From NCBI GenBank assembly GCA_944324305.1, contig CALUVV010000009.1, forward strand, positions 1 through 64,000: 64,000 nucleotides of DNA, read 5' to 3'. The position numbers and the translations under genes were made by a program. Origin of the DNA: Candidatus Gastranaerophilales bacterium (GTDB lineage Bacteria; Cyanobacteriota; Vampirovibrionia; Gastranaerophilales; Gastranaerophilaceae). How positions within the stretch are numbered: the first letter of the stretch is position 1; every line of letters begins with the position of its first letter. Below are positions 29,343-57,289 of the stretch, piece by piece. Under the pieces are notes generated by a model that ran no database searches, was not told the DNA's origin, and saw only the letters and a program-made list of their open reading frames with translations.

Positions 29343-30091
29343 ATGAAAATATTTCAAACAGTCGGGGGGGGGGCAATTCTGTAGCTCCCTTTGGAGGATT
29401 TACCCTTGCGGAAGTACTTGTAACATTAGGAATTATTGGAGTGGTTTCTGCAATGACAGTACCTTCTTTGATGCAAAATCACCAGAGAAAAACTTATGTT
29501 ACACAACTGCATAAGGTTTATAACGAAATGCAGCAGGCATTTTTACAATATATGACCGACAAAAATGCTATAGATTTGCGTGAAGCGGGTTTAACCAGCG
29601 CGCAAGAAGCACAAAATTTTATGAAAAAATATCTTAAAGTTGTGACTGATTGCGGAGGACTTACAAAAGAACCGTGTATTTCTGAGACGTACAAGAATAT
29701 GAACGGTACAGCTGCTGCGGGGATGAACGGTGCTTGGGACGGAGCGTGTACTGTACTATCATCAGGTGCAAGTGTATGCATTGACCATGCTTCCAAATAT
29801 TCGGGAACTGTTGAAGGTAAAACATATTATTACGGTGCTTTTATGGTTGATGTAAACGGGTTAAAAGGTCCTAATATTGTCGGCAGGGATTTATTCAGAA
29901 TGTATTATTTCATGGACGGTACAATAGATGAGTTTTCCGGTAACCCTTATTGCAGAAAAGAAGGACTATGCAACGGATCAGATTTAAAAACCCTAAGAGA
30001 AAACAACTTTAATGCTTCGTGTGCTGGAAGTACCGATGGTATCGGATGTTTCGGTAAAATCCTTAATGACAATTGGGAGATGACATATTAA
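29343..30091 (+). CDS. Type IV pilin-like protein, out of frame at a G10 tract (likely phase-variable)
   Basis: The ATG at 29343 has a strong AAAGGAG site. Translation reads MKIFQTV, enters ten G and hits a stop at 29382 after 13 residues. In another frame the sequence continues GGFTLAEVLVTLGIIGVVSAMTVPS, a class III/IV prepilin N-terminus with Glu5, then about 200 residues of a Cys-containing pilin head with DVNGLKGPNIVGRDLF. A tract of 8 or 11 G would join the two frames. No other start codon allows a full signal segment. It is either a phase-variable gene in its off state, a homopolymer sequencing error, or a recent frameshift. The tract itself is not in doubt. Confidence 0.75.
29364..29373 (+). 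repeat. Poly-G tract (10 G) in the pilin leader
   Basis: Ten consecutive G in an AT-rich genome, 21 nt after the ATG of the pilin gene. In-frame lengths are 8 and 11. The same length recurs at 57163-57172. Confidence 0.95.
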
Positions 30092-38117: not shown

Positions 38118-38153
38118 ACCCATGTATACAAATTACGAAAGGTGGAAATGATT

Positions 38154-38828
38154 ATGAGATTATCAAACATGAGAGGTGCTTTCACATTAGCGGAAGTTTT
38201 AATTACACTGGGTATTATCGGGGTAGTGGCTGCAATGACTATGCCTACATTGATGAATTCAACACAAGGGGCGCAATACAAAGCGGCTTATAAAAAAGCT
38301 TTATCCGCAATATCACAGGCTGTGACACTTAATGTGGCATTGGATGACTGGAATTTGGCAGATTCTACTGCTGCAAGTACTTGTGCTTATCCTTCAAATT
38401 CTATAGCTGCTCTGTTTAATTCAAGAATGAATATTGTCAGATGTGAATCCGGAGCATTTAAAGGTTCGGACGGAACAAGTAATTATGCAGTATCAGGAGC
38501 TTCAGGCGGTGTTGGCGGAACTGCAACGACTACAACAGGAACTGCAGATAATATTACACTGTTTTTTAATGACGGTATTATGTTTACATTTCCTGCAAGC
38601 GATACAGCGTGCACCCAAGATGAAACAAAGTCTGGTGGACCTTGTTATGGTTTCATTGATGTGAACGGGGTTAAGGCTCCTAACAAATTTGTAAAATGTG
38701 ATAATTCAGGTGCTGCAGGTGATAATTGTCAATCAAAAAGTCCTACTGATGTTTATCCTGTAGTCTTTTATGATCAGACAATTCTGCCAAGTTCTGTTGC
38801 GGCAAGAGCTGTATTGTATGCTAAATAA
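38154..38828 (+). CDS. Type IV pilin-like protein (intact)
   Basis: 224 residues from the ATG at 38154, chosen because AGGTGG lies 8 nt upstream; ATG 38148 is too close to it. The leader MRLSNMRGA precedes FTLAEVLITLGIIGVVAAMTMPT, a prepilin/pseudopilin helix with Glu5. The head has low-complexity Ala/Thr/Gly segments, four or more Cys, and CYGFIDVNGVKAPNKF near the end, a motif shared with the two frameshifted pilins. Unlike them it has no homopolymer tract and depends on the Xre-linked promoter. It could be a major or minor pilin or a type II secretion pseudopilin. Confidence 0.85.
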   Translation: MRLSNMRGAFTLAEVLITLGIIGVVAAMTMPTLMNSTQGAQYKAAYKKALSAISQAVTLNVALDDWNLADSTAASTCAYPSNSIAALFNSRMNIVRCESGAFKGSDGTSNYAVSGASGGVGGTATTTTGTADNITLFFNDGIMFTFPASDTACTQDETKSGGPCYGFIDVNGVKAPNKFVKCDNSGAAGDNCQSKSPTDVYPVVFYDQTILPSSVAARAVLYAK

Positions 38829-56422: not shown

Positions 56423-57198
56423 TTAATATTTACCGGCTGAATATCTTTCGTAATTCAGTTTTCCTGTTCTCATAGTGTCATATAAACCTCCGTATCCCGA
56501 GTGCTGATCTAATTTCCCCGGAGTAACGGCAAAACTGTAGCAGTCATACCCGTATTGATTTCTGCCTTTCTTCGGACCGTTTATATCAAAAAATATTTCG
56601 GCACAATGCTGTGCAGTATAGTACTCGGGGACAGGTTTCCCATCTACTAAATTAGTGTAATTCCCGTTTTCATCTTTTTCATAGCGTGCATATGTAGTTT
56701 CGCAATTTCCTTTCCAGCTTCTTTTTCCAAACCATATTAATGTCCCGTCATTTAATATGACCCTGTCCGAATTTACAGTTGTTATTTTAACATTTCCGTA
56801 ACCATCATTTGTACGAGTTTTCGGCATTACTTTATATGTACCTCCGCAGCCTTTTGAAGCGGAAGAACATTTTTCTATTACATTCAAATACTTAGTAAAG
56901 CCCTCTAATTGTTCCATAGCTGATAAATCCGGATTAAATTGTTCGGCATAATCTGACGTACCAAGCTCTGCTTTTCTTAAATCAATGGCGTTAGCAAGCT
57001 CCGAGTATGTGCGCTTTAGTTTGTTTACCATAACCATTTCATCATATTTGGCAATTAATCCCGGTATGGTTAAAGCTGCTGTTACCCCGATTACACCCAG
57101 TGTTATTAAAACTTCCGCAAGAGTAAATGCATTTGAAAATGTTGTTACATCGCTGTTTTTTCGGGGGGGGGGCAGTTCAATGCTTTAATATAATTCAT
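56423..57198 (-). CDS. Type IV pilin-like protein, out of frame at a C10 tract (likely phase-variable)
   Basis: The ATG at 57198 has a GAGGAG site. Translation reads MNYIKALNC, passes ten C and stops 17 codons in. In another frame the sequence continues SNAFTLAEVLITLGVIGVTAALTIPG, a prepilin helix with Glu5, then a ~200-residue head with several Cys and FFDINGPKKGRNQYGYDCYSF near the end. A tract of 8 or 11 C would restore one frame of about 258-259 residues. The Gly-coding tract at 29364 and this Pro-coding tract are at the same place in the protein. Phase variation in the off state is the leading reading; sequencing error and decay are the alternatives. Confidence 0.75.
57163..57172. repeat. 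Poly-G/C tract (10 bp) in the second pilin leader
   Basis: Ten G on the plus strand, which is ten C in the coding strand, starting 26 nt after the A of the ATG. In-frame lengths are 8 and 11, as for the first tract. Confidence 0.95.
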
Positions 57199-57289
57199 TT
57201 TTAGCTCCTCTTACTTAAATAATATAAAATTATTATTTACTATTTTCCCTTTTTTGTCAACGTCTATCTTTACAATCTGAAAAAAATAC

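Follow-up and report, generated by a model that had tools for sequence, protein, structure and literature searches.

Positions 56,423 to 57,198 of the window, by which we mean the whole 64,000-nucleotide stretch of DNA analyzed here, hold a prepilin-like gene (gene 2 in the following) whose start is followed by a run of ten identical bases, and the locus raises the question of what such a run does in this place. The minus-strand sequence begins with ATG AAT TAT ATT AAA GCA TTG AAC TG[C10] GAA AAA ACA GCG ATG TAA. The leader peptide, MNYIKALN and then TG[C10]G, is thus 17 codons long as assembled, codon 18 being the stop, and the prepilin lies in another frame, as the sequence-only reading of this DNA had stated. 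A second gene of the window, gene 1, agrees with it, as had also been noticed, in a tract length of ten and in being in frame at 8 or 11. The features of both genes are as follows.

57163-57172, minus strand (G10 on the plus strand): C10 tract of gene 2, with the polar motif TC-G10-CA on the G strand
57145..57198, minus strand: leader ORF of gene 2 as assembled, OFF; ATG at 57198; MNYIKALNCPPPEKTAM and stop
57205-57210, minus strand: RBS GAGGAG of gene 2, preceding the leader ORF
56423..57127, minus strand: body of the gene 2 prepilin, FTLAEVLITLGVIGVTAALTIPG... to stop, which only tracts of 8, 11 or 14 bases bring into the frame of the ATG
29364-29373, plus strand: G10 tract of gene 1
29343..29384, plus strand: leader ORF of gene 1 as assembled, OFF; ATG at 29343; MKIFQTVGGGAIL and stop
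29399..30091, plus strand: body of the gene 1 prepilin, FTLAEVLVTLGIIGVV... to stop, likewise brought into frame only by 8, 11 or 14 bases

With 11 C, gene 2 reads MNYIKALNCPPPRKNSDVTTFSNA-FTLAEVLITLGVIGVTAALTIPG and is open as far as 56423, and 8 C also reads through. Gene 1 with 11 G gives ...GGGGNSVAPFGG-FTLAEVLVTLGIIGVV, which has the same build. Both read-through proteins score above the cut-off of TIGR02532, the prepilin N-terminal model (16.7 bits against 16.3 for gene 2), and that of gene 1 also exceeds the cut-off of PF07963; a Pfam search with the gene 2 read-through protein gave no match. Judged by sequence, the products of both genes are predicted to be type IV prepilin-like, with a class III signal sequence carrying the N-terminal methylation motif.

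The two tracts are the only G/C runs of at least eight bases in the window. Six overlapping 8-mer G/C matches were counted against 0.25 expected, and none of 100 shuffles reached six. A third prepilin gene of the window (38148-38181, plus strand, FTLAEVLITLGIIGVVAAMTMPTLMNST) has a short in-frame leader without a tract and therefore reads as constitutively ON.

Number and reading frame of the tracts in the genome

The two genes had been proposed to form a two-member contingency system with four states. A contingency switch remains the best reading, but the membership of two does not stand. The whole genome (2,196,861 bases in 16 contigs) contains 169 G/C runs of exactly ten bases, six of exactly 11 and none of exactly nine, which rules out a two-gene system. 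About 96% of the tracts are exactly ten long, an unusually uniform length, and most of the roughly 170 are located at the starts of genes for prepilin-like (surface-fibre) proteins. In the 864 kb of this genome that were read, runs of 7, 8, 9, 10 and 11 bases number 0, 1, 0, 87 and 4, a spectrum that is not the tail of a random distribution; these stretches were picked where tracts or pilin motifs were listed, so that genome averages are given by the whole-genome counts and not by the densities found here. The window's genome has 161 copies of the FTLAEV DNA motif, as against 4 to 139 in the other 32 genomes of the genus and no more than 24 outside the family.

It had been argued that the DNA repeat is kept rather than the peptide, and this is borne out. 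Neither the 864 kb nor 1.19 Mb from six congeners contains a C-N10-C copy in which one base of the tract is mismatched, whereas exact copies number 86 in the window's genome and 53 in the congeners. Selection for Gly or Pro residues was rejected on the same ground, no copy having even one other base inside the tract, and on codon usage, as GGG represents 11% of the Gly codons and CCC 17% of the Pro codons in this genome. A phage-borne origin of the tract was also considered and rejected; the viral contigs searched gave no match.

In the 864 kb, 76 prepilin genes carry a tract behind an RBS and an ATG, at least 19 nt after the ATG, and their frames were scored from start codons anchored by the RBS. 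The tract is ten bases long in 71/76, all 71 being out of frame and needing one more base, while the five genes with other lengths (four of 11, one of 8) are all in frame. The phases from ATG to tract and from tract to FTLAEV are 1,0 in 46 genes, 0,1 in 25 and 2,2 in five. These pairs always combine to an ON length of 2 mod 3 (11 or 8) and are OFF at ten, in 76/76 genes compared with a permuted mean of 38/76. Permuting the right against the left phase in 5000 runs gave a mean of 26/58 matches with a maximum of 39 for G-type tracts, and a mean of 11/18 with a maximum of 16 for C-type tracts, the permutation treating paralogues as independent although they are related. As all three phases occur on each side and yet lead to a single ON outcome, the frame was not merely inherited from one ancestor. 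The tract lies inside the ORF, 3' of the start codon, and its length sets the ON or OFF frame, as in a contingency locus.

The OFF genes are not pseudogenes, because their bodies are long (all tract-bearing bodies in the sample have at least 191 codons, n = 66) and show low dN/dS and pN/pS. The gene 2 orthologue in the MAG 'Fusobacterium sp. CAG:439', a tract-rich congener, has the same C10 tract, is also OFF, and its body gives a dN/dS of 0.08 over 234 codons when compared with that of gene 2; for the tract-bearing orthologue pairs, the pooled pN/pS is 0.137. These ratios show strong purifying selection on the OFF pilin genes, whose silent alleles keep a functional, selected downstream ORF. 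The leaders in front of orthologous gene 2 bodies differ. Tract leaders are found in the window's genome (G000) and CAG:439 (G004), C10 leaders in G003 and G018, and tractless in-frame leaders of different 5' sequence in G007, G016, G017 and G023, which indicates that one body can be combined with exchangeable leader modules.

We consider it probable that the tracts constitute a very large set of contingency loci in prepilin leaders, with OFF as the default. The tract of gene 2, one of about 170, would act as a slippage switch from within the translated leader of its prepilin-like surface protein. At the common length of the species (ten here), most copies in pilin leaders would leave the frame OFF. 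Replication slippage from 10 to 11, with one G/C gained, would bring the ATG and the prepilin into one frame, and a few pilins would be ON at a time in any population. This reading starts from what is directly observed: the tract and its length spectrum, the frames, the selection acting on the silent bodies, the conservation among species, and a common length that shifts while OFF is retained. From these we infer that the length changes within populations, that the protein is made at 11 and that the benefit is a diversification of surface pilins.

Flanks of the tract and tracts outside pilin genes

On the G strand, the left neighbor of the tract is C in 91/92 copies and the right neighbors are C and then A/G in 92/92, with G never found at +4 and +5. 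The C and CR flanks hold separately for G-type pilins, for C-type pilins and for 15/15 non-pilin tracts. An AGCT box is located 7-14 bases to the right in 38/58 G-type pilins, 10/18 C-type pilins and 5/15 non-pilin tracts (background 1.9%), and is rare to the left (1/58, 3/18 and 0/15, respectively). Gene 2 keeps the core C-G10-CA, with TGCT instead of AGCT. Since these polar flanks are shared, the leaders of genes 1 and 2 represent the same module, C-G10-CR, in opposite orientations. The description of the two leaders as unrelated is correct for the peptides but fails for the DNA, where the flanks form one polar motif on opposite strands, and an independent origin of the leaders finds no support.

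Some pilin leaders contain insertions or tandem repeats that keep the frame and have the form FTLAEGATHV... (L387 in G020, L125 and L129 in G029, and L296). These insertions are built on the palindrome CTACGCACGTAG. In the sample of the window's genome, 4/4 exact copies of this palindrome are near pilins, directly beside G10 tracts.

About ten non-pilin genes, named by eye from their sequence (glycogen-synthase-like, membrane glycosyltransferase-like, GT2-like, matrixin-like and others), are intact at exactly ten, so the tract also occurs in genes that are ON by default. The idea that such genes had received a whole inserted element was rejected, as orthologue alignments of two of them show an in-place codon replacement with no net indel. 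In the glycogen-synthase-like gene (L063:7056, L191, L197, L198), a C10 near codon 35, in frame at ten, keeps its position in orthologues whose proteins are 62-69% identical, all Pro codons being CCC; this tract is common to at least two other species. In the matrixin-like protease gene (L085:1185, orthologues L222-L250), C10 replaces codons in place (RIAPPPEDMC versus, for example, KIAEPPKNDC), and among the orthologues read it is present only in the window's genome and CAG:439. In the non-pilin genes L062:6436, L083:7251 and L092:18008, the tract is accompanied by an AGCT box. As in the pilins, one base more is needed to restore the frame in at least L083 and L092, whereas the non-pilin tracts lacking the box are in frame at ten.

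Tracts in related genomes

As the sequence-only reading had anticipated, G/C tracts are in large excess in the pilin leaders of related genomes, and the outcome it had named as refuting, no such excess in relatives, did not occur. Exact-10 tracts are present in 29 of the 33 genomes of the genus, at 3-169 per genome, and absent from the other four; genomes from other families of the order contain 0-3. Tract count follows pilin count across the 33 genomes with a Spearman coefficient of 0.65, or 0.91 without three outliers. Besides CAG:439, the named carriers are Gastranaerophilales gut MAGs, including SIG30, Candidatus Scatousia and Zag_111. The congeners G022 and G029 have the same expanded FTLAEV prepilin family as the window's genome (125 and 93 copies) but, unlike it, few or no tracts, and those leaders that were read are short, plain, tractless and in frame; G013, G024 and G027 are likewise tract-poor. 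The switch would thus be an added layer on this family.

The common length itself is not fixed. Tracts in SIG30, Candidatus Scatousia and Zag_111 are mainly 11 long, with pilins OFF at 11 and ON at 10, and a group with 12-base tracts is mixed (three OFF, two ON). Over all genomes except that of the window, 19/140 loci are ON, where chance would give one third; the named loci were retrieved by a pattern of at least nine G, which makes them uninformative on short tracts, and the numbers for each lineage are low. Common lengths of 11 and 12, with mixed alleles of 9-13, are seen in G058 (SIG30) and G060 (CASFTJ). The length preference therefore differs by species within the Gastranaerophilales.

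Alternative explanations and known systems

A loss of mismatch repair of the Campylobacter jejuni (C. jejuni) type, in which MutS is absent, does not apply here, as a full-length MutS is present in the window's genome (TIGR01070 match above cut-off). Slippage should consequently be lower, which counts against a contingency switch. So do the uniform length, the approximately ten non-pilin genes in frame at ten, for which plain contingency gives no reason, and the C and CR flanks kept in unrelated genes. A dedicated, sequence-specific process recognizing C-G10-CR, often together with AGCT, might make, reset and toggle the tracts between two adjacent lengths throughout the genome. Such active length setting would explain the uniform ten, the lack of interrupted copies, the constancy of the flanks across unrelated genes and the single ON direction of all pilins, and is regarded as unlikely.

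Programmed slippage with no change of the DNA, in which an extra base is added by RNA polymerase, or a -1 shift is made by ribosomes, at G10/C10, is considered quite unlikely. A tract fixed at ten bases would then give low-level production of every 'OFF' pilin, in agreement with the uniform length, the same net offset in all 76 pilins of the window's genome, the purifying selection on the bodies and the presence of MutS. However, in-frame 11- and 8-base alleles coexist, G10 and C10 transcripts must both work, and efficient shifting would damage about ten other genes that are in frame at ten. The sign of the offset is moreover opposite in the lineages with 11-long tracts, where ten is needed. 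As a fixed programmed frameshift needs one sign everywhere, DNA slippage between adjacent lengths fits these lineages better.

It is very unlikely that C-G10-CR is kept for another role at the DNA level, as a binding, uptake or recombination site, with the effect on the pilin frame being secondary. The flanks of the non-pilin tracts, the polar AGCT box and the in-place codon replacement in the matrixin-like and glycogen-synthase-like genes would suit such a role, but it predicts neither that 71/76 genes are OFF at the modal length nor that the phases match, and the common length moves to 11 or 12 in relatives. The swapping of leader modules between orthologous bodies might suggest that silent pilins are a donor library recombining into a few expressed loci, OFF being a sign of decay; given the own RBS, ATG and intact ORF of each copy, the dN/dS of 0.08 and the lack of interrupted tracts, this is highly improbable. 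That a true 11 was written as 10 is hardly credible, for although homopolymers are error-prone in short-read assemblies (PMC4235727), the genes of the same genome that are intact only at ten rule out a systematic error, and tracts are found in many species, samples and assemblies, other genomes having 9, 11 or 12.

A slippage switch in the prepilin leaders would resemble the poly-G/poly-C phase variation of C. jejuni, with G/C mononucleotide tracts in reading frames, ON or OFF set by frame, mainly surface-structure genes and an AT-rich genome. In C. jejuni, 12-29 tracts of G8-G12 are found per genome, mismatch repair is absent (PMC4965091, PMC4235727) and the tract flanks have no effect on slippage (PMC4965091); G runs longer than 7 count as hypermutable (PMC4235727). 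In comparison, about 175 tracts are present here, about 96% of them exactly ten long, MutS is encoded and the flanks are constrained. The system is most unusual in this contrast of MutS, uniform tract length and constrained flanks. The targets differ as well, being mostly sugar-modifying enzymes in C. jejuni and prepilin-like proteins here. The phasome of Neisseria meningitidis (PMC5084427) is similarly large, repeat-based and directed at pilus-related targets, but it has mixed repeat types, with 115 genes of observed variation (PMC5084427), in contrast to the one tract type found here. Neisserial pilin varies by RecA recombination (PMC11868660), whereas the tracts here are in the leaders of a prepilin family.

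A literature search for phase variation in the order Gastranaerophilales found no report. If the switch reading is true, this would be one of the largest homopolymer phasomes described, in uncultured gut relatives of cyanobacteria, and its target would be one expanded prepilin family, with OFF as default and MutS present. Surface diversity of these common gut bacteria would then arise within a strain and be missed by gene annotation, in which most such pilins would be called truncated. The uniform length, together with the fixed flanks, raises the testable question of how homopolymer length is controlled.

Among assemblies, some orthologous or near-identical leaders have tracts of unequal length (9 versus 10, 11 versus 10), and paralogous pilin tracts have 11 bases at L091:4566 and 10 at L092:7417. 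Two neighboring non-pilin paralogues, L370:9972 and L370:10948 (CALVBD), carry G11 and G10, respectively, close to their 3' ends. The copy with G10 continues in frame and that with G11 is cut short, possibly as a length polymorphism between near-identical genes.
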